DNA from: a virus
Length of the DNA stretch: 52,289 nucleotides
Virus record (IMG/VR): IMGVR_UViG_3300028840_003294
Coordinates: 1 to 52,289 of that record
Direction: 5' to 3' (one strand)
Part shown: one piece after another, positions 4,552 to 50,889 of the stretch
Numbering within the stretch: position 1 is the stretch's first letter
Layout of the letters: each line of letters starts with the position of its first letter
Program-made: the position numbers and the translations under genes
The notes under the pieces: generated by a model
Told to the model about the DNA's origin: nothing
What the model saw: only the letters and a program-made list of their open reading frames with translations
Database searches by the model: none

Positions 4552-4571
4552 CAGCAAAAAAGGAGCAGATT

Positions 4572-5864
4572 ATGAAAAAGTTGTTGATCGTTGTTTACCT
4601 CATGCTCGTTGCGCTGCCCGTAGCGGCGAACGTCCCACCACCAACCGAATACACCAGCGGCGCCGACTGCGTCCGTCGCCTGATTGCCGGCCAGAACATC
4701 GACGTTGGGCGCGTCGAGCTCGAGTGGCTCGAGAATGACCTACTCGTTTCCTACATCATCGAAGACCCCGACTGGCGAATCAAAGAGGTGCATTTTGGAT
4801 GGTGGCACGAGCAGGGGAATCTTCCCGCTCACGCCGTTCCCGGGGATCTTCAATATGGTCGGGAGGATCTCGACACTACATTGCACTCATTCACCATTTC
4901 AAAGGACAACCTTTGCACGTTCTCGAAGGACGCGCCGGCGAAGTGCGAGGACCGCTGCCCTTGTTGGTTTGCGGCTCACGCTGTTGTAGAGCGGCCGTGC
5001 CCTGAAGAAAAGACGATCTATAAGCCCGGGCGATATGCCACGTCCGCAAAGATCAAGGTCACGCGAGAGGGTCGAAGCTCATTCTTTAACGTTCAAATCC
5101 AAGGGAGCGGGATCAATGCAGCAGTCAACAACGGATGGTGCCTCGACAAAAGACTCACACTCCCCGAGGGAATCTGGCTCGACGCCGAAGTCATCTACGA
5201 CTGGCAGGAGCTCGATGGAATTGTTGATTTTCCACAAAATATGGCCCTCATCGAATGGATTGCAAGGCAAAATTACGTTGGTCGAAAGGTCTTCTGTGGG
5301 CAAATCGTCCAGCGCATACACGTACAAAATGCAATCTGGAATCTGGCTCACGGTAAGCAAATTGGCTGTGTGGCTTCTGCGATTGTCAGCGAGGCACGGC
5401 GCCACGCAAATTCAAAAAACATTCAGCGATCCTGTTGGGAAATGGCGGCAGACTTTGTCCTAACCCCAAGGCTTTGCTCGATGGTTTCTCCCCCGGATGG
5501 TTTCGCTTGTGCGATGTATCAACCGATCTACTCCTACAAATATGTGAGGGAAACATGCCCAACAGATACACCTACCCCGTCAGAAACCCCAACCAGGACG
5601 GCGACTCCCACGCGCACCATTACGCCTACGTTTTCGGCTACCTCCACGGCAACGAGTACGCCCACCGGCACCCCGCCGCCCACTTTGACGCCCTCTTTTA
5701 CACCTACTGCAACGCCTACCGAAACGGCGCCGCCGACTTCTACGCCGACCGCGACTTCAACGCCAAGCCCCTGCCCGCCGCAGCGCGAAACCGCATGGGC
5801 TTTTGGCTCAGTCGAATTCGGTATCGGTTGGGGTTGGTTTTTCGAGTGCTGCGAGGGTGAGTGA
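4572..5864 (+). CDS. Secreted Cys-rich protein with TP-rich linker, possible thioester-type domain
   Basis: A 430-residue protein with a clear signal peptide (MKKLLIVVYLMLVALPVAA, cleavage near residue 19). Residues 20-325 form a Cys-rich domain. It contains NNGWCLD (Cys190) and later VQNAIWNL (Gln252 region), a pair reminiscent of Cys-Gln thioester (TQXA-like) adhesin domains; this is a resemblance only. Residues 330-400 are a Thr/Pro/Ser-rich linker (TPT-type repeats), followed by a short tail ending FECCEGE. The ATG at 4572 has AAGGAG upstream. It opens the segment containing sulfotransferase-like, methyltransferase and glycosyltransferase genes. Likely exported by the infected cell. It could alter the host surface, block superinfection, or be a glycosylated product of the downstream enzymes. 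Confidence 0.7.
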   Translation: MKKLLIVVYLMLVALPVAANVPPPTEYTSGADCVRRLIAGQNIDVGRVELEWLENDLLVSYIIEDPDWRIKEVHFGWWHEQGNLPAHAVPGDLQYGREDLDTTLHSFTISKDNLCTFSKDAPAKCEDRCPCWFAAHAVVERPCPEEKTIYKPGRYATSAKIKVTREGRSSFFNVQIQGSGINAAVNNGWCLDKRLTLPEGIWLDAEVIYDWQELDGIVDFPQNMALIEWIARQNYVGRKVFCGQIVQRIHVQNAIWNLAHGKQIGCVASAIVSEARRHANSKNIQRSCWEMAADFVLTPRLCSMVSPPDGFACAMYQPIYSYKYVRETCPTDTPTPSETPTRTATPTRTITPTFSATSTATSTPTGTPPPTLTPSFTPTATPTETAPPTSTPTATSTPSPCPPQRETAWAFGSVEFGIGWGWFFECCEGE

Positions 5865-6130
5865 TGTACGTCAGCCAAGCCAAGCGGAAGACGTGCCCGC
5901 TTCTCGGAGTCAGAGCAGCGGAAGCGACCGAGCAACATGGCCGGGGCCACCAATGGGTTGCGACATTCTCCCCGTCATATTGCACCGCCGATTCCTGCAT
6001 GTGGTGGGTCGCCACAAGAGCACAGAAGGGGGACTCTGATAGCGACGGCGAAGGGTACTGCGTCATGCGTCTTCTCGAAGATGTCGTGGAGGCGTTAGCC
6101 GCGCTACCCAGGAAGGAATATGATGTTTGA
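5864..6130 (+). CDS. Small Cys/Trp-containing hypothetical protein
   Basis: An 88-residue protein that starts at ATG 5864 overlapping the previous stop (TGATG); a GTG at 5861 is possible. A Cys at residue 12, then CTADSCMWW and later GYC, resemble a family of short phage proteins with the pattern C-x(n)-CxxxxCMxW-x(n)-GxC, function unknown and possibly metal binding. It overlaps the next gene by 11 bases, consistent with coupled expression. Confidence 0.65.
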   Translation: MYVSQAKRKTCPLLGVRAAEATEQHGRGHQWVATFSPSYCTADSCMWWVATRAQKGDSDSDGEGYCVMRLLEDVVEALAALPRKEYDV

Positions 6131-6632
6131 GCATCTCAAAAGATGGCCCCGGGTTCTTGTCACCGGGCCCCAACGATCCGGCACGCGCATCGGCACAACG
6201 ATGATCGCTCACGACCTGAACTATTGGCCCGTGTATGAGGAACAGGTCGGCACGGATTCACTCAATCGCCTGTGGAAGCACCTTCAGACGACGAGGAACA
6301 CAGTCACTCAATGCCCCGCGCTCTCGAGCCACGTTCATCTGCTCGCCCTTGACGATCCAGAGCTCGCCGTCGTTCTCATGCGGAGATCAATCAAAGAGAT
6401 CCGTGCGTCTGAACAGCGGATACGTTGGGCGTGGGAAAAGCCCGAGCTCATCCGAGAGGGCATCCTCGTCAACAGCTCATCGGCTGAAGCGAAATACAAG
6501 CGATGGGACGAGCTCCAAGCCGACGTAATTGGGGAGCGGGGTTTCGTGGTCGAATACTCGAGCCTCCACACTCATCCCCTGTGGAAGCCGGCGCCGGCAA
6601 GAGTAAACTTCGAACCGAGGCAAACACGATGA
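6120..6632 (+). CDS. Sulfotransferase-like P-loop protein
   Basis: A 170-residue protein with VTGPQRSGTR at residues 14-23, the 5'-phosphosulfate-binding type of P-loop found in PAPS-dependent sulfotransferases, and VVLMRRSIKEIRAS (84-97), where an Arg and Ser would contact the 3'-phosphate. The C-terminal part (YSSLHTHPLW then RVNFEPRQT) resembles a group of short sulfotransferase-like proteins near phage glycan genes. AGGAAGGAAT precedes two consecutive ATG codons at 6120 and 6123; either could be used. It is coupled to the methyltransferase (ATGA). The substrate is unknown; a carbohydrate or the secreted protein upstream are candidates. It could instead be a P-loop kinase of similar fold. 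Confidence 0.65.
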   Translation: MMFEHLKRWPRVLVTGPQRSGTRIGTTMIAHDLNYWPVYEEQVGTDSLNRLWKHLQTTRNTVTQCPALSSHVHLLALDDPELAVVLMRRSIKEIRASEQRIRWAWEKPELIREGILVNSSSAEAKYKRWDELQADVIGERGFVVEYSSLHTHPLWKPAPARVNFEPRQTR

Positions 6633-7231
6633 GCGGGCGACTACCAGACGAGGGCACAACGCGGCGAATTATCTCCGACTTTTTCATCAAGCACCGCTCC
6701 CTCATCATGCCGCACGTTCTCGAGGTCGGATCGGCGCGGCCGGCCGACGCTTGGTGGGCGGATCTTCGGTCGCAACTCGGCGGCATCTCGAAAAAGGAAT
6801 GGACCGGCGTTGACATGAAGGCGTCCGACGGTACGGATGTCGTCCGCAACTTGGCTCGGCTCGACTTCACACTACACCCATTGCCGCAAGACAGCTTTGG
6901 GTCGTGCGTTTGCGCCGAAACCCTCGAGCATGTGGACTACCCGGCGATCTTCTTGATGAACGTCTTCAACCTGCTTCGCCCCGGTGCATGGATCGTCATT
7001 ACGACCCCATTTGCCTTTCCCGTTCACGAATCGACGGGGAAGGACTACTGGCGATTCACGCCGAGCGGCCTGCACCTCCTTCTTACTGATGCGGGATTCG
7101 AACAAGCACACACTTACGAGCTCGAGCCATCGACGTTCTACTGGCACGACCACGAGCATAAACTTTCTGATTACCACGGCCCCCGTGACCTACCATTTTG
7201 GATCGGGGCGATTGCGAGGAAGCCTGAATGA
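6629..7231 (+). CDS. Class I SAM-dependent methyltransferase
   Basis: A 200-residue Rossmann-fold methyltransferase. Motif I is VLEVGS (30-35), with the usual second Gly replaced by Ser. The acidic end of strand 2 is VDM (61-63), and the post-motif segment AETLEHV (96-102) then LRPGAWIVITTPF (116-128) are typical of the Methyltransf_11 type. The start at 6629 overlaps the previous TGA; a longer frame from 6503 lies within the sulfotransferase gene. Such enzymes in glycan clusters methylate sugars. It sits directly between the sulfotransferase-like gene and the glycosyltransferase, which suggests action on the same molecule. Substrate unknown. Confidence 0.85.
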   Translation: MSGRLPDEGTTRRIISDFFIKHRSLIMPHVLEVGSARPADAWWADLRSQLGGISKKEWTGVDMKASDGTDVVRNLARLDFTLHPLPQDSFGSCVCAETLEHVDYPAIFLMNVFNLLRPGAWIVITTPFAFPVHESTGKDYWRFTPSGLHLLLTDAGFEQAHTYELEPSTFYWHDHEHKLSDYHGPRDLPFWIGAIARKPE

Positions 7232-7326
7232 GTAAACGCAGCGAGGAAAATTGGGCGTCGTTCGGGAAGTTTTGCGCGGTTATGATTTACATGATTCTTC
7301 TTAATCATTTTTGCGGGGGCCGATAA
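7228..7326 (+). CDS. 32-residue putative membrane peptide
   Basis: A short frame coupled on both sides: its ATG overlaps the methyltransferase stop (ATGA) and its TAA overlaps the glycosyltransferase start (TAATG). It encodes a polar N terminus (MSKRSEENWASFGK) then a short hydrophobic stretch (AVMIYMILLNHF), enough for a marginal membrane helix. The double coupling supports translation. It may be only a translational bridge, or it may tether the downstream enzyme to the membrane. Confidence 0.45.
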   Translation: MSKRSEENWASFGKFCAVMIYMILLNHFCGGR

Positions 7327-8990
7327 TGAAAACCTACGTCATCACTTGCACCGGCGACCGTCCCGAAGCACTCAAGCTCTGCAACCACTACATGCAGCGG
7401 CAGGGCCATCAAGACTTCACATGGATCGTGGCAGACGACAGCGCCAACTCGATCCCCGAGAAGCCAAAGCGGTGCGACACATTCCTGCTCCGGAAATTCG
7501 AGAAACCAGGGGGGCACTCGTTACTTGGGAATCTTCGATTTGCGCTGATGCACATTCTTCAGGCCCCGGGCCCGGACCCTGACGACCTTGTCCTCATCGT
7601 AGAAGACGATGACTGGTATCACGCGGGTTACATTGGAATGATGCAGCACTACGCTCGCGTCCTCCCGCCCGAGATTGTCCTCTTTGGCGAATCCCACACG
7701 CGCTATTACAACGTCCGGTGGCGCACTTACCGCCACAACGACAACGCAGAGTGGGCAAGTCTTTGCGCCACCTGTTTCAAGGCTTCATTCATTCCTGACA
7801 TGCTCAAAATTGCCCAAAACGCCGACCCTGACCGGCCGTTCATTGACGTAATCGCCTTCACCGAGAATGCCGAACGGGCGCACCTGTTCCTTACGGACTT
7901 CGTTTGTGGCATCAAGGGCATGCCGGGAAGGACCGGCATCGGCCACGGCCACACAGAGGCTTGCAAGCGCCTGAAGCGAGACCCGTGGCTCGAGACTCTC
8001 CGCGACTGGACGGGCCCGGACTGCGAACGCTACCGAGATTTTTACCATTCCGAGGAGCTCAAGGACATTCCGATTCCCCAAGACCAGCGCCATGAGCCTT
8101 GGGCAATTCAGGAAATGAAGCAGCGGGCCGAAGGCGAGTCCGGAATTTGTTGCATCTTCCGTCAACCCGGCGTTCTTCCTGATCTCACGGCTTTCGCGGC
8201 CGGCGCGTTCGCGCATGGATACCTCAACGAGTTCCGAGACATCGCGGACGCGAGACTCTCGCATTTCCCGCCGGCAAACCTCGCGGTCATCTCGGGGGGC
8301 TTTCTCAGGCATGGCGGCTTGAACGGCAAAGTGTTTGAACACTACCGAGCGATCGGCGTTCCTGTCGTCATTTGTGATCCCGGGCGCGTCGTCAAGAACG
8401 CTCAACGAATCTACGTGAACCGAGAACATTGGCTACCGCCTACCCTTCCACCGCGGAACCGCATTGAGCACCTTGGGCTCATGCCGAATTTTCAGGAGCG
8501 GGGGACAAAAATTCTGATCGCCGGCCAACGTCCGGATCTCGACAACCAGCTTCGGCCGGCGCTCGAGGCGATCAAAGCCTACAGTGATCGACAAATCGTT
8601 TTCCGGCCGCACCCGAACACCTACCACGGCCACGAAAGGCCGCTCTACGACCTTCCCTATGACCGCGTGAGCGTTGGGGGCGATGGGATCAATGAAGAGA
8701 GCAGGCAAACGCTCAACGAGGCCCTGTGCGATGCTTGGTGCGTCGTGACGCATTCCTCAATTGTCGGGGCCGAGGCGCTATTGAAGGGCATCCCTGTCAT
8801 CTGCTCCGACGACGCCGTCTTTTCCGACGCGGGCGTCCCCCTTGAGGCGGCGTGCGACGTTGAAAAATTGGGCCGGCCAAATTGGGAGGAGCTCTACAAT
8901 TTCCTCCGTCGATGGAGCTACACAATTTGGTATGAGAGCGAACTGAGGTCCGGACAGGCATTCTCGTATCTGAAGGAGTTTATAAAATAA
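7326..8990 (+). CDS. Two-domain glycosyltransferase (GT-A plus GT-B-like)
   Basis: A 554-residue protein. The N-terminal part (1 to about 250) looks like a GT-A glycosyltransferase: TCTGDRPEAL at the start of the nucleotide-binding fold, VADDS (35-39), and VEDDDWY (92-98) as the DxD metal/nucleotide site. The C-terminal half (about 280-554) carries FRPHPN (426-431) and VTHSSIVGAEALLKGIPV (474-491), which recall CDP-glycerol or Kdo-type transferases with GT-B folds. The ATG at 7326 overlaps the previous stop; GCGGGGG precedes it. It would add two sugar-like units to an acceptor, acting in the cytoplasm on host envelope precursors, on virion protein, or on phage DNA. The neighbouring methyl- and sulfo-transferases suggest a decorated glycan. 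Confidence 0.75.
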   Translation: MKTYVITCTGDRPEALKLCNHYMQRQGHQDFTWIVADDSANSIPEKPKRCDTFLLRKFEKPGGHSLLGNLRFALMHILQAPGPDPDDLVLIVEDDDWYHAGYIGMMQHYARVLPPEIVLFGESHTRYYNVRWRTYRHNDNAEWASLCATCFKASFIPDMLKIAQNADPDRPFIDVIAFTENAERAHLFLTDFVCGIKGMPGRTGIGHGHTEACKRLKRDPWLETLRDWTGPDCERYRDFYHSEELKDIPIPQDQRHEPWAIQEMKQRAEGESGICCIFRQPGVLPDLTAFAAGAFAHGYLNEFRDIADARLSHFPPANLAVISGGFLRHGGLNGKVFEHYRAIGVPVVICDPGRVVKNAQRIYVNREHWLPPTLPPRNRIEHLGLMPNFQERGTKILIAGQRPDLDNQLRPALEAIKAYSDRQIVFRPHPNTYHGHERPLYDLPYDRVSVGGDGINEESRQTLNEALCDAWCVVTHSSIVGAEALLKGIPVICSDDAVFSDAGVPLEAACDVEKLGRPNWEELYNFLRRWSYTIWYESELRSGQAFSYLKEFIK

Positions 8991-9286
8991 TGCGATGTTC
9001 AAAATGCGGAGAAGAGACGCCCGCGAATCTTTTCACCCACAGCGGAACAATTTGCGACGACTGTTGGGCCGTGCATGACATGGACAGATTCAGGGAGGTT
9101 CGACCCAAGACGGACTCGGTGCCAGTGGCGAAGTGTGCGAAATTGACGACCGGCATCGGAGTCCTCTGCCCCCATTGTGACCACAAGGTAATGCGAAAAA
9201 ACGGATACTTCCACAAGCAAACGCAGATTGAGCGTTGCCCGAAGTGCATGAACCATTACAAAGTAAAAAAGGGGGAGGCGATATGA
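8990..9286 (+). CDS. Zinc-ribbon protein with four CxxC pairs
   Basis: A 98-residue protein with CSKC (3-6), CDDC near residue 22, CPHC near residue 60 and CPKC near residue 82, so it can form two four-Cys zinc ribbons. The start overlaps the glycosyltransferase stop (TAATG) and the stop overlaps the next start (ATGA). Such proteins in phages are usually DNA/RNA-binding or adaptor proteins of unknown target. Position before the coiled-coil and RusA genes puts it at the border of the glycan and DNA-processing segments. Confidence 0.7.
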   Translation: MRCSKCGEETPANLFTHSGTICDDCWAVHDMDRFREVRPKTDSVPVAKCAKLTTGIGVLCPHCDHKVMRKNGYFHKQTQIERCPKCMNHYKVKKGEAI

Positions 9287-11288: not shown

Positions 11289-14200
11289 TTACTCTTTTTT
11301 TAGCCGCCGCTTCAAGGTTTGCAGCTCGATCGTCCGGTAACGACGGTTGAATTTCTTGAATTCATTCTGCATCCTCGAGTCCTTGACAGTCACCCCGGCT
11401 TTCCGAAGCTCGCGGACCCTCTTCTCTGTTGCCTTCACAATTTCCTCAATCGCCAAAACATTTTTGTGCCGCTTGTAGAAGTCAGCCGCGGCCTTCGGAT
11501 CGGTTTTCGTGAGCTCGTCGTAGGTCTCTTTCTTGATCCAGTAATCGCCCATGTTGGCGCGGTACATATTGGGAGCGAAAAACTGCGACTCTTCGGCAAA
11601 GAAAGATTTAAGGACAGGAACATCCCGGGCCGAAAGCGTTTCCCCCGCAGCGCCCTTTGAAAGCAGACTCAGCCCGCGAATCACAGTATCGCCAAGACCT
11701 CCAAGCGCGGCGCCGATCGCATAGTCGATGTCTTCCGGGGAAATGTCGATCCCAAGGTGTTTATACATGAACCGCGTCATCTCTTTCGAAGGCTTTGAGA
11801 CGCTTGAAAAATAACGGTTGTAGTTTGGAGTCGGCACGCCGTACTGTTCAGATCGTGCGAACTTTGAAGGCTCTGGTCGAATCGGTCCTCCCCAAAAATT
11901 GCGGTTCGCGGAGATGTCATAGACGGGGTCAAGCCACGCCGGCATTCCCATTTGGACGAGGCCAACGAGCGTCGTCGGGTCATTGTCGCCAATCGGGTTG
12001 AAGGCTGAGAGGCCGGCTGAGAGGATATGCGCTGTGCCCTCCCAGGCTGCGTCTTTTGTTTCGCTTGGCCGATCCAGTGCGCGATTGACGGCGTCGGCGG
12101 CAAACACTCCAGCTGCGGGGAACAGATTAAATCCCCAAGGCAGCGGAATCTTAAACCGTTTCCCCTCTCCCCCGGGGACCATGAAAATGAGGTTCCGCTT
12201 TTTCTCCCATGCGGGGATTTTGTCCCAATAGGGGATTTTGTCTTTCTCGTCCTCGCCGCCAACCCAACGCATCATCGAAGCGTGCATGAATCCGTAGCCC
12301 ATCGCTCCGAGCATCATCTTTTGAACCTGTCGGTTCTTGGCTACCGAGTCAATGACCATTTTTGAGCCCTGCAAGGAGGCATTGGCGAACACATACCACG
12401 GGCTTAGATATTGCGCGACTGTGCCCTGTTGCGTGAAATCGACAGTGATGTCTCGCGCCAGCTTGCCGGCCCTGTCTTTAGAAAGGCCAATTTCGAGCCC
12501 GCGCTCAAAAACGGAGAAGCGCAACATTCCTTCGACTGCGGCGTTGTAATCTTCAATCCAATTGATTACAGATTTGACGGTGCTGAAAACCTTATTCTGC
12601 TCACCCTTGGTTTGCTCGATTTGAGCCTGAATCTTCCGCATCTGATCCGCTAAATCGGGAATCATCCAGAACGCGGTTTCCCCGCCGGCGAGCTTGAACT
12701 GCTCGATTCTCTGGCGCTTCGTGGCGTCCATTTGGTCGAGCGTCCCTTTCGACTGGCGACGAGCGTATTCTCCGAGAAGCGCCGCTGCCTCTGGAACGCG
12801 CTTCATTGTCTTCAAGCCAAAGCCCTCAAACTTCTTTTCGCCGCCGAGCTTGATCCCGGCGGTGAGAGCATCGCGGACAGCGTTCGGAATCACAAATGCG
12901 GGGTTTCTCGAGGTTGCCATCTTCGAGATGTAGCGGTTGATATTTACGCCAGCCTTCAAGATCGGGTTCAAGTCTTTTGACGAGCCAACGTTATTCAACG
13001 CAGAGACGAATTCAGCCATCCCGGGGCTGACGTGGCGAATGTAGTGCAGCTCGCCGTCGATCCAAACGTTGTAAACGTTGTCCTTGACCACCGAGAGCCC
13101 GTCGATTTTGGTTTTTACGGTCTGCGTCTTTTCATCCCACACGAGCCGCGAATCCGGGCGGTCAATCTCAAAGAGCTTCTCGCCGTTTACGTCCTTGACG
13201 TTCTTCATCTTCTGGACGAAATTCCAGACCGTCTTTGCAACGCGATTCTTTTCGGCCCGCACGGCCGTCTCCATCGCGTCCGTCATCAGCTCTACAGTGG
13301 CCGAGTGTGTTGGGAAAGACCGCCGGCCGAGGGCACGATGAGCGGCAGGGCGCCGACCCGGGTTATACCCGCGGCCGGTGTTCGGGAGATGGATCTTGTC
13401 GGCTATGCCAAGGCCACGAGCAGCTCGAGCCAGGGCCCGGTGCCACATCTTACCGCCGTACATCTCAATCTCGGGGATCGGGGGGCGCCTGCCGTTGGCG
13501 ATGATGTCCAAGATGTCCGGGTCTTTGCCCCGCATCGGAGCGTAATGCTTGTAGTCCCGCCATTTTTTGAGCTCGTCTTTCGAGAGCAAGCCGGCACGGA
13601 ATAGCGTTTCTTCTTTCCAGCGGACGATGTCCGAAAACCGGCGCGAAAGCCGACCGAGCTTGCCTCTATAGACCGTATCTGGTCCGAGCTCCCCATCCCA
13701 TTCCACAAGCCCAAGCTCGCGCATCTCCTCGAGAGCGGCCTTTGCGTGCTCGTCTGTGATTCCAGAGTGAGGCGCCTCTCCAGCCTCGTCCATTCGCCTG
13801 ATTTCAGCGATTTTCTCTTTTTCGCGAGCCACGGATTCGCGCTCGAGGGTTCTCATTTCGACGCGCTTCGGCTTGGCTGAGAACCCGCGCTCGTTGAAGA
13901 ACCGAACCTCTGCAATTCCCGACTCGCGGTTGACCGCTACCACCTCGCCCTTGGCGTTGTTCTCGAGCGACCGGACCTTAGTGCCAATGGACAGGTGCTT
14001 CGTTTCCAGCTTCGCAATTTTGGCCTCTGCCTGTTTAATTGGAAGCGTCACATTCGCCATGCGAATTTTCGGGTTTCGCTCAAGCGCATGAGCGGCCATG
14101 CGGAACAAATCGAAGTCCTCGAGATGAATCCCCGACTTTGCTATGTCGGTAATCAACGGTTTGAAGAGCTTCTCTTCGACCCAATCAACAAGGGCGCCCG

Positions 14201-17200
14201 CACGCGCCTGGAAATTCTGCGCCTTGAGGTAGGCGTCGAAAATTTCGTCGAGCTCTTGACCAACCTCCGTGAGTTTTTCCTGAATTGTGCGAATCGGAGC
14301 TATGCGATCGAAGAGTGTTTTCTCCGCACGGTTTCGGTAATACTCCGTGAGCGTGTGGTCTTCAATCTGCACCCCGGGGTGCTGATCCCCTGAAAGCTCG
14401 TGAGCTCCAGACAACGAGTAAACAGTCTGCGCGTCACCGCGGTCGATGAGCTTTTCTGTGCCGGCGCCCTCGATCGCATTCCGCCACGCTTCGGGGAACT
14501 CTTCAGGAGCGAGCTTCCGATAATCGAACGCTTCTTCTGCGGCCCGCCTCGCACTAAGAATATCGTTCCGAATCGTCCTTAAAATCTTTTGCCCCGTTGG
14601 GTCGGTGATAATCGCCGCCTCTCCCTTTTGAGTCTCAAAAATCTCGCCGCTTGCGATTTGCTCCATGATGCCGGCGGCGCCTTCGATGTCGGCAATTTTT
14701 AGACCCGCAACGTTTTCGAGAAGAGACTGCGCGAACCGCTGGAGGAATTTGAAAATTTGGGTCGCTCTCGGCTCGGCCTCTGCTCGCGTCTCGGCCCACG
14801 CCTGATACGCTTGGGCCGCGCCCTCTTCGGTCTCGTACACCTTCAGCAAGGTCATGCGTTGATCGTTCGTGAGAACGTTATGAAACGCGAAGTGAAAGGA
14901 TTCGTGAAACACCTCTTGGGAAATGCGCTTTGGATTGTAGAGAGAAATCAAATGAGCCCCGCTCATGTCTCCCTGCTGCCCAATTCGATACCGCCCCTGC
15001 ACCTTGACGGTGCCGGCGTCCAGTGCGGCCACCAAATCTTCGGGTTTTATGTTTCGATTCTCCGCTGCCGTTTTGATGAACTCGTCGTCGATCGTCGGGC
15101 CGGGACCGCCAACGGCAACATGCAGAACTGGTTGGCCCTCCCTCGTCAAGCGGAACAGGCCCCCCTGTGTGTGCCGCACATTCCAGCCGCGGAACGCCTT
15201 TTGAATTTTTGGAACGAGCTTCGCCGCTCGAGCTCGAACGCCCTTGTCTTCTTTGTCCTGCTCTGCTTTTCTTTTTCGTGCCTCGCCCTCTTTTTTCGTG
15301 GCGATTTGAATGCGCCGAAGCCTGAGAATCTCTTCGCTGATTTTTTTCTTTTCTGCCGGGTTGGCGTTGTTGAGCTGCGCCGTTAGGTCTTTGATCCGGC
15401 TTTGAATCGTAACCCCGCTCTCGACGTCCTCGGCCCGTGCCGGGGCCTCTGTCGTAGCGGCCGGCTCGAATTCGGTTCGCCTTGCAATCTCGTCCTCGAG
15501 AACGATTGCGAGATCGTGGATCTCGGGATCGAGGCTTTGCACGAGCTCCTCGTCTTTTCTTGTGAGTATTTCGATCGCTGATTCGCCGGCCTCGATGCGC
15601 TTGATGAATTCCGCGACCGCTTTCGGGCTGTTGTCCTGCTCGCGGGCAACGCGGTACATCTGGTCAACGACGTCGTCCGCAGTTCGACGCCTGCCGAACA
15701 TTCTGCGCTCAACGTCTTCGATGGTTTCCTCTGGCGCTTCTTCCCTTGTAAAGCGTTCGAGGATGTTACGCTCCGAGACCGCAGCCTCGAGCTCGAGCGC
15801 CAGGTCTCGCGCCTCGCCGCCGAGCTGTTCTTCAATTTGAACGTCCGACTCGTAAATCTGGTTGACCGTTTGGCCTTCCTCGAGGCCCCTCACGAGTTTC
15901 TGCACGATAGCGGGTTCAATGTTGTTCTTGCGCTGGAACTCGAAAATGTCGTTTTTGACTTTGTCGATTTCGCGCCGGCGCCCTGGCTCTTCCCGCCGCT
16001 CATCTGGCATCTCGATAAATTGGTCCGCGGCTTCTTGTTGCGCGAGGTATTCTTCCGGCGAGATGTCCGGTTTTTGCAAGGCGGCAATCAGGTCGCCCAC
16101 CGTAGCACTCGGCGGCAAATATCCTTCTTCCTTAACAACCTCAAGCATTTGATCCGGCTTCATTCCGTCTTTTCTGCGATAACGAACCGGAACGCCTTCG
16201 CGGCCTTTGTCTCCGTAAATTTCCTCTGAGAGATAGCCTCCTGTGTGTTTGCCGATGCCACCATTTTCGAGAACAATTTGATGAATGGTTCGACCGAGCC
16301 GACGCTGCCCCTTCAGCCTGCGAAGGTGTGGATGTAAGGCTATGACTTCCTCATCAAGCACGACGCCCTTGCGGATCGCTTTTTTGAGCACCGCCTCGTG
16401 GTCTTCTTCGGCCCCGGTTTGCTCGTATTCTTGCGTTGTCATCTCCCACGGATTCTTCGGCTTCTCGATCGGCGGGAGCGGCGTAACTGGTTCCGGGGTA
16501 GCACCCTCTTCGACTTGCTTCCCCTCGTCCAGCCTCATAGCACCGCTCTCAACGCCGTGAGGCTGCGTCGGAGCGGCGGGGCCACCCACTACGGGCCCAC
16601 CTACCGCCGGAGCCGCAGGGCCACGGCCAACGCCCTCAGAGAGATTGCGCTGTCCTCTTTGGCTTGGCGGCGGCGGGAGCTCTGCAAAGGTTTCGGTTTC
16701 TGCTTGCATGCGCTGGCCCGCGACAAGCTCATCGGCTTTGTTGATCGTCGTGGCGAGCTGGCGCATCGCCTCCTGTGGGGAGAGGCCCTGCTCGCCGGCA
16801 AGATCAACAATCGCGGCTTGAGTGTCTTGGTCAAGGTCGCCAGTAACGAACGCCTGGAACAGCTCCGGTCTCACCTTCAGCCAGTCTGGAGCATAGCCGG
16901 CGCGAGCGGCCTCAACACCTTCTGGCGGCGCTAATCTGGCGGACCCGCCCGGGCCATAAAGCGGCGCCACGTCAACGCCGCTCGGAGCAGGCGACCCGGG
17001 CGGGACCACAAACTCTTCCGGCCTTACGTCCGGTTGTGTTTCGGGGATCGGCTCTGTTTGAACAAACTCAGGGACCGCGGGCCCCATGTCAGCCCGAACC
17101 GCATCGGTTCGCGCTGCAACCTCTTCTCCGGTTGGACCCGGCCCTACCTCGGTCTGCGCTTGAATGTTCCCGGCGCCCCCTCCAAAGGGGCCCATCATCG

Positions 17201-35460: not shown

Positions 35461-35632
35461 ACCGTCTCCGATCGTGCCGGCGAAACTCGATCGCTTCGAT
35501 GATTCCAGCGGCCATTCGCTCTCGCCAAGTACGATGATTTGCCTTCCCCTCGTGAGGCTTTGGCTTCTCCTCCATGATGGCGAGGTGACATCGGGCAATG
35601 ATCTCTCCAATGGTGGGCGCCCGCTCTATCAT
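35444..35632 (-). CDS. Small helical protein upstream of the endolysin
   Basis: A 62-residue protein, MIERAPTIGEIIARCHLAIM at its start and basic in its C-terminal half (RERMAAGIIEAIEFRRHDRRR). Its ATG overlaps the TGA of the tandem-Ig-like gene (ATGA), and its end overlaps the endolysin start by 17 bases, coupling both. Short enough to be a regulator or structural adapter; function unknown. Confidence 0.65.
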   Translation of the reverse strand: MIERAPTIGEIIARCHLAIMEEKPKPHEGKANHRTWRERMAAGIIEAIEFRRHDRRRYENLP

Positions 35633-37407
35633 GGCTCGAAATTCCTCGTGCCCGCGTACCCGAGTGGCAGGGCGTTGTCGTCGTTGCTGCACCACAATTG
35701 GGCGCAGCCAACCGCGTCCCCGCCGTTATAAAACTGTTTTTGAATCGAAACGGTGAGCTTGTTTAGCTCAGTGTCCGCGTCGAACGTCGGTGACGAAAGG
35801 GTTCCAGAGGCGGTGTTGTTTTCAGTGTACCCGGCCTCGCACCCGACTCCGCGAATGATGTAGGCGTTTGTGCTGAAATTGTATTCAAACCCGAACGCTG
35901 CCCATTGGCCGTATCCAAAAGGTTGCGACGACCAAAAGCCGATTTCCTCGACCTTTTGCGTCCAAGAGCCGCCAGTCGCGGTGTAGATTAGCGCCTTTTT
36001 ATTGGCGATGGTGCTTTCGAGGTAAATGCCATCCTGACCATCGGCGCTCTGAAGATAAAGCCGGACCCTGGACGCCGTGCCTTCCATCGAAACTAGGCAT
36101 TCGCACCTGACGGTCTCGCCGTCACTCGGGGTAAACCCGTTTCCGGTTGGAAAATACATAGCCCACCCGCCAGATTCCCAGGCGGTAGGCGAGGAATACC
36201 ACACGCGAGAATACGATCTACCGTTTCCGATTGCATCGAGATCGGCATGGTCATCGACCTTGACGGCCCGCGTTCCGCTAGTCGGGGAATATGCGCTTGT
36301 GTAGGAGGAAAGGTCGGTTGTGTCAAGCGCGATGCCTTCCATGTTGACGACTTGCGGCCAAGAGAAAGCAGACCCAACCATGTTGTCAACCGCGACGTCT
36401 GCGCCGCTGACAGAAGGTGATCTCGACGTTGGCGTAAACGTGTAGGTGTCTTTGGTAGGCGTGACGGTATAGCTTCCATCGGAAAGGCCCGGGAAGTTGT
36501 AATCGCCGTTCGAGTCCGTCGTGTCGGTGTCTGAAGCGTCACCGCTCAGAGTCACAAGAACGCCCTCGATCCCGGCGGTGTCACCGTCCACAATCGAGCC
36601 GGAAATTTCCCAAACTTGAGCCATCGTGTCGGCCGCAGCATCGGACCCCGAGATCGCAACCGCGTCACTCGTTGGGCTGAAGGTGCTTCCGGACTTCGTT
36701 GGAGTCACCGTGTACGAGCCATCAGAGAGCCCCGAGAACGAATAGGTGCCGTCGCCGGCGGTTGTGGTGCTGTCCGACGCATCGCCGGTGAGAGTCACCG
36801 TAACGCCGCTCAGGCCGGCCCCTGCGCTATCGTTGATCGTCCCCGTGATCTCCCAAACCTGAGCCATTGTCGTAGCGACTTTGTCGGCCCCGTTGACCGT
36901 CACGTTGTCGCTTGCCGGCGAGAAGGTGCTGCCGGCCTTGGTGGGTGTCACCGTGTAGCTTCCGTTCGCCAGATTCCCGAACGAATAGGCCCCTGAGCCG
37001 TCCGTGGTGTCGGTTGCGGACGCATCCCCGGAGAGCGTCACAGTCACGCCTGAGAGGCCCGCGCCGGCGCTGTCATTGATCGTTCCGGTGATAGCCCAAA
37101 CAGACGCCATCGTGGTTGCAGTTTTGTCGGCCGTGGTGATGGTCACGGCGGCACTGGTCGGGTTGAAGGTCAGACCAGCCTTTGTGGGTGTCACGGTGTA
37201 GGAGCCGGCGGAAAGCCCCGTGAACTCGTAAGCGCCCCCGCCCGACGTTGTCGTCGAATCAGAGGCGTCCCCCGTAAGCGTGACGGTAACGCCGTCGAGG
37301 CCGTTCCCATCAGCGTCGTTGATCGTGCCGGTAATCGAGTAGGTCGGGGGGCCCGAGTCCTCCCCGCCCCACTTGGCCCAACTCGGCCAACCGCTCCAGC
37401 GGCCCAT
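35629..37407 (-). CDS. Virion surface protein with four CnaB/carboxypeptidase-regulatory-like repeats
   Basis: A 592-residue protein. After a short N terminus, four tandem units of about 81 residues begin near residues 23, 104, 185 and 266. Each reads like an SdrD B-like / carboxypeptidase-regulatory-like beta sandwich: (S/E)ITGTIND, G(L/I)xGVTVTL, GDASxxxTT, Y(E/S/N)F, GSYTVTPTK, TFxPTS. Residues about 345-592 form a concanavalin-like beta sandwich (GYGQWAAFGFEYNF and neighbouring strands), possibly glycan-binding. Such repeats make extended surface rods, and in phages decorate capsids or fibres. It follows directly after the gene at 37409, downstream of the capsid gene, so a head-decoration or fibre role is likely. 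Confidence 0.7.
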   Translation of the reverse strand: MGRWSGWPSWAKWGGEDSGPPTYSITGTINDADGNGLDGVTVTLTGDASDSTTTSGGGAYEFTGLSAGSYTVTPTKAGLTFNPTSAAVTITTADKTATTMASVWAITGTINDSAGAGLSGVTVTLSGDASATDTTDGSGAYSFGNLANGSYTVTPTKAGSTFSPASDNVTVNGADKVATTMAQVWEITGTINDSAGAGLSGVTVTLTGDASDSTTTAGDGTYSFSGLSDGSYTVTPTKSGSTFSPTSDAVAISGSDAAADTMAQVWEISGSIVDGDTAGIEGVLVTLSGDASDTDTTDSNGDYNFPGLSDGSYTVTPTKDTYTFTPTSRSPSVSGADVAVDNMVGSAFSWPQVVNMEGIALDTTDLSSYTSAYSPTSGTRAVKVDDHADLDAIGNGRSYSRVWYSSPTAWESGGWAMYFPTGNGFTPSDGETVRCECLVSMEGTASRVRLYLQSADGQDGIYLESTIANKKALIYTATGGSWTQKVEEIGFWSSQPFGYGQWAAFGFEYNFSTNAYIIRGVGCEAGYTENNTASGTLSSPTFDADTELNKLTVSIQKQFYNGGDAVGCAQLWCSNDDNALPLGYAGTRNFEP

Positions 37408-47859: not shown

Positions 47860-48236
47860 CCCTCCTCGGCGCTCGATAAAAATTTGTAGTGGCTCTGGCT
47901 TTCTTTGACGTCGAGATGCGGGCACACCCTCCAAGTGACGACTTCATACGTGTCGTAGGTGACGGGAAAAGTCTCAAGCACCCAAGCCGGGAAAAACGTT
48001 TTTTTGAAGTGCTGCCACCACGTTCGCGGGCAACGAATTTTCGTTACGCGCTCTTTTCTTCCCGCAACATCCACCATCATCGACACAAGGATCTCGTCTC
48101 GCATGAAATCGCGGCTCTCGTGAACTTTGACTTTTCGAAGCATCGTTGGGTCGATCGTGACGTCCACCTGTCGTCTGACCTTCTCGAACGCCTCTTGAAG
48201 AATCGTCCCGGTCGCGTATGGGCTCATCGCCATCAT
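47856..48236 (-). CDS. Hypothetical protein of the early minus operon
   Basis: A 126-residue protein starting at ATG 48236, overlapping the replication protein stop (ATGA). It contains basic and aromatic segments (RCPRTWWQHFKKTFFPAW) and is predicted to be a mixed alpha/beta fold. No family is recognised. Its place directly after the replication protein suggests a role in DNA replication or its regulation. Confidence 0.65.
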   Translation of the reverse strand: MMAMSPYATGTILQEAFEKVRRQVDVTIDPTMLRKVKVHESRDFMRDEILVSMMVDVAGRKERVTKIRCPRTWWQHFKKTFFPAWVLETFPVTYDTYEVVTWRVCPHLDVKESQSHYKFLSSAEEG

Positions 48237-49084
48237 CCCGCCCCCTTCAACCACTCCTCGAACGGGGGAGCCTTCCGCGGCGGAAAATCACCCGCAGCGT
48301 CGGAATACTCCTCCCATCGACTGTGATTCCCGAATTTGTTCCGATCGCTCTCTCGCACCGTGTCGTACAACCAGCCCCCTTCGGCCGTGGGCCGGGAAAC
48401 CCCCACCCGCTGCTTCGCCCCGTCTTCGTTCCGTCGCGTGATCCACGTCCCCACCGCCGCCTTCCACGACTTCATCTTGTTCTTCCCCACCATCCAACCC
48501 TTCGACTCGTAAAAGTCCACGAACGCCTGCGGGTCGATCCGCGTCTCCCCCCTCTCCTCCAAATACCCCCGAACCTCATCCACCGACGGCGGCTTGAATA
48601 CACTCCGTTTCTTCTTCTTCTTAGGAGTATTGTCATCTACATCTACATATACACTTACAGGTACAGGGTCCACTTCCTGTCCGACTTTGTCCACCCCATG
48701 TCCACCACTGTCCACCAATGTCCCCCTCTGTCTCCTCTTGTCCTCTGCCCACTTCATTCTCTGCGACTCTCGAGCCTGCTTCTTCCGGTAATACTCGTAA
48801 TTCACCACCCGCCACCTGTTCGGACCCTCCGGAACCAAACGCCTCCCCCCGTGATCCGGACTCGTGCTGTGCTCATCAGGGCCCGTCAAGACCTCCAACG
48901 CCGAACGGGTCTCCTCGAGCTCCATATTCGCTAACCGCGCCATGCTCTCGACCGTCCCCCGAAAACACCCCTCGCTGTCACACCGCAACAGACACACCGT
49001 AAACAGCTTCCATACTGCCGGCGGGTGCTCGTTGATCGTTGAAAAAAGCATGTCATCCCACAGCATTACGAAATGTGGAGTCAC
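48233..49084 (-). CDS. Replication initiation protein, O/DnaD-like
   Basis: A 283-residue protein starting at GTG 49084, overlapping the regulator stop, with GGAGGAG upstream. Residues 1-100 form a winged-helix domain in the style of phage replication protein O: VWKLFTVCLLRCDSEGCFR, then MELEETRSALEVLTGPDEHS and WRVVNYEYYR. A basic linker (PKKKKKR) separates it from a C-terminal domain containing FYESKGWMVGKNKMKSW, a typical DnaD/O-like helix pair. Such proteins bind the phage origin and load the host helicase. A frame extending upstream to 49324 runs through the regulator gene and is not used. Confidence 0.82.
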   Translation of the reverse strand: MTPHFVMLWDDMLFSTINEHPPAVWKLFTVCLLRCDSEGCFRGTVESMARLANMELEETRSALEVLTGPDEHSTSPDHGGRRLVPEGPNRWRVVNYEYYRKKQARESQRMKWAEDKRRQRGTLVDSGGHGVDKVGQEVDPVPVSVYVDVDDNTPKKKKKRSVFKPPSVDEVRGYLEERGETRIDPQAFVDFYESKGWMVGKNKMKSWKAAVGTWITRRNEDGAKQRVGVSRPTAEGGWLYDTVRESDRNKFGNHSRWEEYSDAAGDFPPRKAPPFEEWLKGAG

Positions 49085-49305
49085 GACGGCTCCTCCATTT
49101 CTGATTCCTGCTCGAGAACCATGAACCGCTCCGCTGTGGCTGAATACGGGCGCGTCGATCGACTCTCCCACAACGCAATCGTCACAGGCGTAGTCTCCAA
49201 CATCTCCGCCAATTGCACTTGCGTCACCAACAATTTCAAACGTAGCGCCTTGACCCGCTGGCCCCACGTCATCTCGTCCATCAAAAACCCCTGAGATTCT
49301 GGCAT
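49081..49305 (-). CDS. XRE-family transcription regulator
   Basis: A 74-residue protein, start ATG 49305 with TTGGAGG upstream. Residues 27-47 (VTQVQLAEMLETTPVTIALWE) form the helix-turn-helix of a Cro/C1-type regulator. It is the first gene of the minus operon, close to its promoter, so it probably controls expression in the divergent region. No integrase exists, so it may set early/late timing in a virulent phage rather than lysogeny. It couples to the replication gene by GTGA. Confidence 0.85.
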   Translation of the reverse strand: MPESQGFLMDEMTWGQRVKALRLKLLVTQVQLAEMLETTPVTIALWESRSTRPYSATAERFMVLEQESEMEEPS

Positions 49306-49345
49306 TGAGAATAGCCTCCAACAACTTAAAAAGTCGGGCAAACTC

Positions 49346-49876: not shown

Positions 49877-49992
49877 ACCGTCACATTATTTGTAAACCTA
49901 CACCGTAAACAAAGGACTTAGCTGTTGGCATGGATTCTGCATATTCAATCAATGCGTTGTCAGAGACGCAAAAAACCAAAGGGGGTTCAATC

Positions 49993-50889
49993 ATGGGTTC
50001 GAAATTCTACAGTGAGAAAGCGGAACAGGCAGCGAACAAGATACTGGAGGCATTTGAGGAGCCCGGGAGGCTTCCCGCGGCATTGAAGGACATCGCCTTG
50101 CCAGCCACGGAGCGCCACGCGGGGAGTTACAGCATCAGGAATCAAATGTTGGTTTGGATAAACGGATACACGGACGCCGCGGGGTTCAAGCAATGGAAGA
50201 AGTACGGACGCGCCGTCCGCAAAGGCGAGCGCGGGTTCCCCATTCTCGCACCCGTGACCGCGACGTTTACCGCGAAGGATACCGACCCAGAGACGGGCAG
50301 AGAGATCGAGCACCCCGTGACCTACATCCGCGGATGGCGCCACGTTACCGTCTTCGGGATCGAGCAGACCGACATCGTGAATGAGGAGCTCTGGCAGAAA
50401 TACAGCGAAGCAGCGGCGAAGAATGCCGAGTTTCTCGAGAATCTCCCATGGGTCGAGGTGGCGCGGTCATGGAATCTCGCCTGCGGCGCCGACGGTCGCT
50501 TGCTCGAATACGGCGCCCGGGGTTGCTACACACACGGAAAAGCGATCGAAATCGGAGTAGAGAATCTCTCGACGTGGGCACACGAGCTCGTTCACGCGGC
50601 AGACGACCGCCTTGGAACGTTGACAAAGAAGTCCGGACAGCAGCCCGACAATGAGTTAGTTGCGGAGCTCGGAGGGGCTGTGCTGTGCCTCTGTGCCGGA
50701 CACGAGACCGAGGCGGACATCGGCGGAGCATGGGAGTACATCAAAGGCTATTCGAAAGACCCCGTCAAGGACGCCGGAAACCTCTTGTCTCGCATCGTAA
50801 CGGCCGTTGCTCTCATCATGGAACAAGCGAAGAACCCCGACGAGACCATTCCGGCCGTTAACCCCGAGCTCAAGACCAAAGCAGCGTAG
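49993..50889 (+). CDS. ArdC-like antirestriction protein with metallopeptidase motif
   Basis: A 298-residue protein. Residues 1-150 are the ArdC N-terminal, single-strand-DNA-binding type: SIRNQMLVWINGYTDAAGF (47-65), QWKKYGRAVRKGERGFPIL (67-85). The second half has HELVH (197-201) and NELVAELGG (220-228), giving zinc ligands His197, His201 and probably Glu225, as in ArdC metallopeptidase-like domains. ArdC proteins protect incoming DNA from restriction. The ATG at 49993 has GGGGG eight bases upstream and is preferred over one at 49930. It opens the plus-strand operon, so it is probably expressed first on entry. The start context lacks the double-hairpin leader found before later genes. Confidence 0.85.
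   Translation: MGSKFYSEKAEQAANKILEAFEEPGRLPAALKDIALPATERHAGSYSIRNQMLVWINGYTDAAGFKQWKKYGRAVRKGERGFPILAPVTATFTAKDTDPETGREIEHPVTYIRGWRHVTVFGIEQTDIVNEELWQKYSEAAAKNAEFLENLPWVEVARSWNLACGADGRLLEYGARGCYTHGKAIEIGVENLSTWAHELVHAADDRLGTLTKKSGQQPDNELVAELGGAVLCLCAGHETEADIGGAWEYIKGYSKDPVKDAGNLLSRIVTAVALIMEQAKNPDETIPAVNPELKTKAA

Follow-up and report, generated by a model that had tools for sequence, protein, structure and literature searches.

Introduction

Thioester domains (TEDs) are described as surface adhesins of Gram-positive bacteria. Three motifs define them: [YFL]C-Phi-zeta, which contains the thioester Cys; TQxxPhiW, in a helix; and PhiQ-zeta-Phi-Phi, a weak motif in a strand that holds the thioester Gln (PMC4450167; PMC6194298; PMC8092201). 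Glycan synthesis by phages also has precedent, since glycans on mycobacteriophage capsids have been described (Freeman 2023, cited in PMC11256854; PMC12619734), and a glycosyltransferase (GT) and methyltransferase pair of Rhodococcus phages has been read as virion glycosylation (PMC13313380). Here we analyze six coupled genes, A to F, in IMG/VR virus record IMGVR_UViG_3300028840_003294, a stretch of 52,289 nucleotides referred to at its full length as the window. The reading we favor, with a probability of roughly 0.55, is that these genes form a two-module system in which a secreted, covalently acting TED-like protein (gene A) would function at the cell surface and a glycan cassette (genes C to F) would act on a virion protein. 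The open-access literature searched contained no account of a TED encoded by a phage.

Like the TED/TIE proteins (PF08341; SfbI, BaTIE, TIE-pLS20), the gene A product appears to be secreted, presents a Cys, a QxxPhiW motif and a downstream Gln in that order, and has a spacer; its bacterial relatives match Pfam TED, and one of them is fused to SdrD_B domains. In contrast to these proteins, gene A is phage-encoded, escapes detection by Pfam TED, has neither an LPXTG anchor nor CnaB repeats, terminates with an ETAW domain, and has its relatives in Gram-negative bacteria. The window resembles the virion-glycosylation genes of mycobacteriophages Che8, Rita and Maravista and of Rhodococcus phages in that GTs and a methyltransferase are phage-carried and relatives encode members of the GT family next to capsid genes. 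However, its putative glycosylation cassette lies in an early operon, includes a sulfotransferase-like protein, and fuses a GT-A with a KpsC-like GT-B. The podoviruses ct7QV12 (MW202713) and ctKR88 (MW202524) likewise have genes for a GT, a methyltransferase and a KpsC-like or D-like protein, located near virion genes. These share only 25-26% identity with F and D, and are accompanied by no TED protein or sulfotransferase that we recognized.

Results

Layout of the six-gene set

All six open reading frames (ORFs) are present where the original prediction had placed them, and the junction overlaps read from the sequence agree with its claim that they are translationally coupled. The features are as follows.

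4561..4565, plus strand: strong Shine-Dalgarno sequence AGGAG of gene A, read directly from the sequence
4572..5864, plus strand: gene A, predicted secreted protein of 430 aa with signal peptide, N-terminal beta domain, TED-like domain, Thr/Pro linker and ETAW tail
5103..5558, plus strand: TED-like core of gene A (codons C190 5139-5141, Q252 5325-5327, Q317 5520-5522)
5559..5786, plus strand: Thr/Pro-rich linker of gene A, 76 aa, 64% Thr plus Pro
5787..5861, plus strand: C-terminal ETAW motif tail of gene A, also present in bacterial relatives
5861..6130, plus strand: gene B, small Cys protein, start ATG 5864 or GTG 5861, no family match
6120..6632, plus strand: gene C, sulfotransferase-like P-loop protein, 170 aa (VTGPQRSGT at residues 14-22)
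6629..7231, plus strand: gene D, S-adenosylmethionine methyltransferase, 200 aa (Pfam Methyltransf_23, 5e-7)
7228..7326, plus strand: gene E, hydrophobic peptide ORF of 32 residues, from the ORF list
7326..8990, plus strand: gene F, 554 aa, GT-A N-half and GT-B C-half (EDDDWY residues 93-98, RPHP 427, HSS 476)
8990..9286, plus strand: small zinc-ribbon-like protein, coupled; the cassette ends and the recombination genes begin here

Genes A and B overlap by 1 or 4 nt (GTGATG), B and C by 11 nt, and E and F by 1 nt, with F starting at ATG 7326 and not at TTG 7311; the C/D and D/E junctions are both ATGA, and D starts at 6629, not 6503. Coupling continues past F, which overlaps the zinc protein (8990), and the next gene overlaps in turn. 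An exonuclease (phrog_298, 9e-22), a RecE-like/exonuclease-associated protein and RusA are encoded in the same operon, and an exonuclease gene precedes A after a gap of 147 bp. Because A follows an exonuclease gene and the coupling runs past F into recombination genes, the cassette is placed within an early operon.

Gene A has a thioester-domain signature

The N-terminus of gene A resembles a signal peptide, and a 71-residue stretch of the protein contains 29 Thr and 18 Pro, consistent with the signal-peptide protein with a Thr/Pro-rich linker that had been predicted. Searches of Pfam, PHROGs and NCBIfam with gene A returned nothing except a PHROG match to the linker. A relative with ∼50% identity was found in IMG/VR contig 3300033429_000007 (G001), which has no match to the window's terminase. 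Apart from gene A, G001 has in common with the window only an amidase (60% identity), a protein with CnaB-like repeats, one protein associated with recombination, and 47 consecutive residues of ORF 48233-49324. The repeat protein (window 35629-37407, minus strand; 43-60% identity in G001) has 592 aa, four CnaB/SdrD_B-like repeats and no signal peptide, and is perhaps a shared host-specific surface or fiber protein.

A domain profile built from the two phage proteins retrieved full-length relatives (3.8e-9 and 1.6e-7) from one class in the phylum of a Planctomycetia metagenome-assembled genome (MAG), and these contain gene A's N-terminal domain, its C..Q..W domain and its ETAW tail. A wider profile added viral contigs L232 (41% identity), L236 and L237, bringing the gene A homologs to five viral contigs, the window and G001 included. 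These contigs have different terminases, and at least two of the five have terminases that are unrelated. All five phage versions carry the Thr/Pro linker (69-125 aa), which the three Planctomycetota-phylum relatives lack. Rhodobacterales plasmids also encode relatives (L233, L235). On plasmids L234 (3745-5355) and L235 (4090-5679), the gene for the TED-like protein lies two genes upstream of exosortase E (xrtE), which suggests a surface-anchoring system.

The core was aligned for eight homologs, five from phage contigs and three from genomes sampled as Planctomycetota. Only 14 residues are invariant in all eight, and among them are C190, Q252, W256 and Q317, the key positions of a TED. The Cys occurs in the context [WF]C[VL]D, with W at the first position except for F in one bacterial relative, and the central-helix motif takes the form [VI]QxxPhiW, with V or I replacing T. 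The strand Gln, Q317, lies in PhiQP-Phi-Phi in 5/5 phages, the motif itself being weak. Q252 was considered as the thioester Gln and rejected, since the published motifs place it in the helix motif, leaving Q317 as the candidate. When the domain alone was searched, Pfam TED was the top family of the bacterial relatives L215 (6.7e-4) and L216 (2.8e-3), and it also matched the Rhodobacterales plasmid relatives L233 (5.4e-4) and L235 (7.2e-3). In L233 the TED is preceded by SdrD_B/Ig stalk-type domains, an arrangement that recalls the TIE architecture. We judge that gene A probably has a TED-like fold, and we are somewhat less confident that it would form a thioester. This signature, which the original prediction did not mention, is the most novel part of the locus.

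Enzymes of the glycan cassette

Gene D is the methyltransferase that had been predicted. It is 37% identical to an L045 methyltransferase whose gene, part of a phage head module, immediately precedes that of an EDDDWY GT, and the pairing of a D-type gene with a GT gene is kept in L045, L048 and L021. For gene C, the predicted sulfotransferase-like P-loop was borne out by the canonical VTGPQRSGT (5'-phosphosulfate-binding type GxxRSGT), but no significant profile match placed it in a sulfotransferase family: its match to Pfam Sulfotransfer_3 (0.092, 13.4 bits) is below the cut-off of 27, and its alignment to the sulfotransferase of L047 is limited to the P-loop. The L047 protein is itself a Pfam-grade sulfotransferase (3e-9) and is flanked by two EDDDWY GTs.

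Gene F was proposed to have two domains, which its relatives and a model of the C-half fold confirm. The N-half belongs to the EDDDWY GT-A family. The C-half model (pLDDT 70) matches KpsC and WbbB, retaining 3-deoxy-D-manno-oct-2-ulosonic acid (Kdo) transferases of the GT-B type (for KpsC, Foldseek E 9e-6; Z 11.8; root-mean-square deviation 4.2; 227 aligned), with only 12-17% identity, and from this model we assign to it a predicted KpsC/WbbB-like GT-B fold. Sequence searches of the PDB with F, D and C gave nothing useful, and single-protein searches of viral contigs with F and C gave nothing, such that an EDDDWY motif scan was needed. None of the enzymes was assigned to nucleotide metabolism, and the idea of a co-transcribed glycan-modifying gene set is supported.

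Resemblance of the GT-B half to capsule and O-antigen enzymes raises the possibility that the cassette alters a host surface polysaccharide, a serotype-like conversion that would block superinfection and with which early expression would fit. However, among the products of the cassette we recognized neither a flippase nor a polyprenyl GT, nor any other membrane protein for glycan export, and the relatives of its GT are located in late virion modules. We therefore regard surface conversion as improbable.

Gene neighborhoods in other phages

Neighbor tallies were made from one EDDDWY motif-based draw with greedy gene picks, in which several loci are near-copies and the tallied families overlap. 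Most of the loci drawn encode relatives of the F N-half (at least 45 at 1e-15 or better, and at least 39 without near-copies), and the neighbors of these relatives include genes for head closure, the head-tail adaptor, the major head protein, scaffold and terminase, as well as GT and methyltransferase genes. In L014, L069 and L084, a protein with the halves of F in reverse order is encoded directly after the major capsid gene. The single polypeptides at this position in L014 (2481-4607) and L084 (1133-3232) contain KpsC-like GT-B, MptE-like and EDDDWY GT-A domains. In podovirus MW202713 (L003 2048-6581), GTs, a methyltransferase, a KpsC-like GT and a DegT-type aminotransferase are encoded directly upstream of the terminase, a nearly complete amino-sugar glycan set. 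We conclude that the EDDDWY GT family is tied to virion genes and that phages commonly carry such enzymes in capsid/terminase modules. The cassette had been thought an unusual cargo for a virulent podovirus, a view contradicted by the EDDDWY GTs and methyltransferases in the capsid/terminase modules of many phage contigs and by the GT and methyltransferase sets of MW202713 and MW202524.

A gene order like that of the window, which the original prediction had proposed to look for in other phages, occurs in L232, whose terminase and portal are 49% and 50% identical to the window's. Its genes encode, in order, the TED protein, a Cys-rich protein, a 184-aa protein, a methyltransferase of another family (Methyltransf_24), a GT-B (35-38% identical to the F C-half), a GT-A (32% identical to the F N-half), a second Thr/Pro-rich secreted protein, the terminase and the portal. 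The second secreted protein (L232 5703-6326) is also Cys-rich, and its start overlaps the stop of the GT-A gene. Because L232 encodes GT-B and GT-A as separate genes, the two halves of F represent separate enzymes, and the recurrence of both domain orders or of separate neighboring genes argues that the GT-A and KpsC-like GT-B activities are functional partners.

An alternative proposal is that the Thr/Pro linker of gene A is itself the substrate, receiving O-linked sugars, methyl and sulfate from the enzymes, to yield a mucin-like secreted protein that would mask the host surface. Gene A heads the coupled series, three of the five TED phages (the window, L232 and G001) have at least two GT genes downstream on the same strand, the second Thr/Pro-rich secreted protein of L232 directly follows its GTs, and the linker occurs in the five phage versions but not in the three bacterial ones. 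Nonetheless, L236 and L237 encode the Thr/Pro-linker protein, and within ∼7.5 kb of it nothing matches the F GT profiles or can be recognized by eye as a GT; with these two of the five linker phages, the earlier view of the linker as an obvious acceptor is not supported, and gene A does not depend on nearby GTs. Conversely, relatives of F are widespread without gene A, as blast and phmmer searches with gene A of the ORFs of 81 loci found no relative. In addition, F has no signal peptide, which would place its activity in the cytoplasm, ahead of export through Sec. On balance, decoration of the linker is unlikely.

Downstream of the TED gene, G001 encodes two TET-associated glycosyltransferases (TAGTs) together with a single RGP-like GT. 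These genes (13343-16650; L002) lie just upstream of the terminase genes and are preceded by two ParB-like genes. The TAGTs of G001, the position of the cassette among recombination/replication genes, and the ability of phage GTs to act on DNA (cited in PMC12619734) would be consistent with modification of phage DNA to glycosylated hypermodified bases. However, no thymidylate-synthase-type base modifier was found in the window or G001 in searches whose controls worked (TET dioxygenase was not searched for), and the TAGT domain PF20691, present twice in G001, has no match in the window. Furthermore, F relatives cluster with head genes, and the F C-half resembles Kdo transferases of capsule/O-antigen synthesis. 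We consider DNA modification highly doubtful; the alternatives rank as linker decoration, then host-surface conversion, then DNA modification.

Genome context

A direct terminal repeat of 144 bp marks the window as a complete phage assembly, and the weak match of its terminase to SP6/phiEco32-type podoviruses fits the podovirus assignment made previously. A large protein of 2383 aa carries LPD38, and 49930-50889 (plus strand) encodes an ArdC-like anti-restriction protein (Pfam ArdcN 1.8e-10). A DNA-level search of phages with the window found no match. The closest cellular matches of the endolysin are Selenomonas (39%) and a Planctomycetia MAG (42%, partial), with no single host indicated.

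Discussion

We conclude that the six coupled genes comprise two separable modules, gene A and the glycan cassette C to F. In our two-module model, gene A would be exported by Sec, with its Thr/Pro spacer separating the TED-like domain from a short C-terminal domain. Outside the cytoplasm, an internal thioester would arise between C190 and Q317 and could then react with an amine (lysine) of a partner to give a covalent bond. As an early product, the protein would most likely coat or cross-link a component of the infected-cell surface, such as a receptor, and so exclude other phages. Gene A would thus be a covalent surface adhesin and perhaps a superinfection-exclusion factor. Genes C, D and F (and perhaps E) would assemble a decorated glycan, with the two active sites of F, GT-A and KpsC/WbbB-like GT-B, adding two sugars in turn from presumed donors, D methylating sugars, and C possibly sulfating them. 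Virion glycan synthesis is the likeliest role of this module, the acceptor being a virion protein, and of the roles originally suggested virion-protein modification is the best supported.

Several observations weigh against this interpretation. The bacterial relatives score 15.1-20.8 bits, all under the curated Pfam TED (PF08341) cut-off of 22 bits; gene A itself has no Pfam TED match; an hhalign profile-profile comparison of gene A with six TEDs was negative; and a profile search of the PDB for which the TED regions served as query returned no TED. The Cys motif of gene A starts with W instead of Y, F or L, and the protein is Cys-rich, so C190 could sit in a disulfide. Its fold model (AlphaFold2, two sequences) reached a pLDDT of only 39. 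On the cassette side, gene C is short for a sulfotransferase and its family match is weak, and the GT cassette of the window sits in an early recombination operon, not beside virion genes.

More tentatively, and with less confidence than in the two-module model itself, we suggest that phages of one presumed host group share an early secreted thioester-forming protein, derived from bacterial TED-type surface proteins with the addition of a Thr/Pro spacer. This protein might bond covalently to a component of the infected-cell surface (e.g. a phage receptor) and thereby exclude other phages or clump cells, and one podovirus lineage may have linked to it a cassette that sulfates and methylates glycans. 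If true, a secreted TED-like protein in five viral contigs would mean that covalent protein chemistry is put to a new use between phage and host. The enzyme set adds candidates for sulfation and methylation to phage glycan synthesis, together with a dual GT that joins an EDDDWY GT-A to a KpsC-like GT-B.

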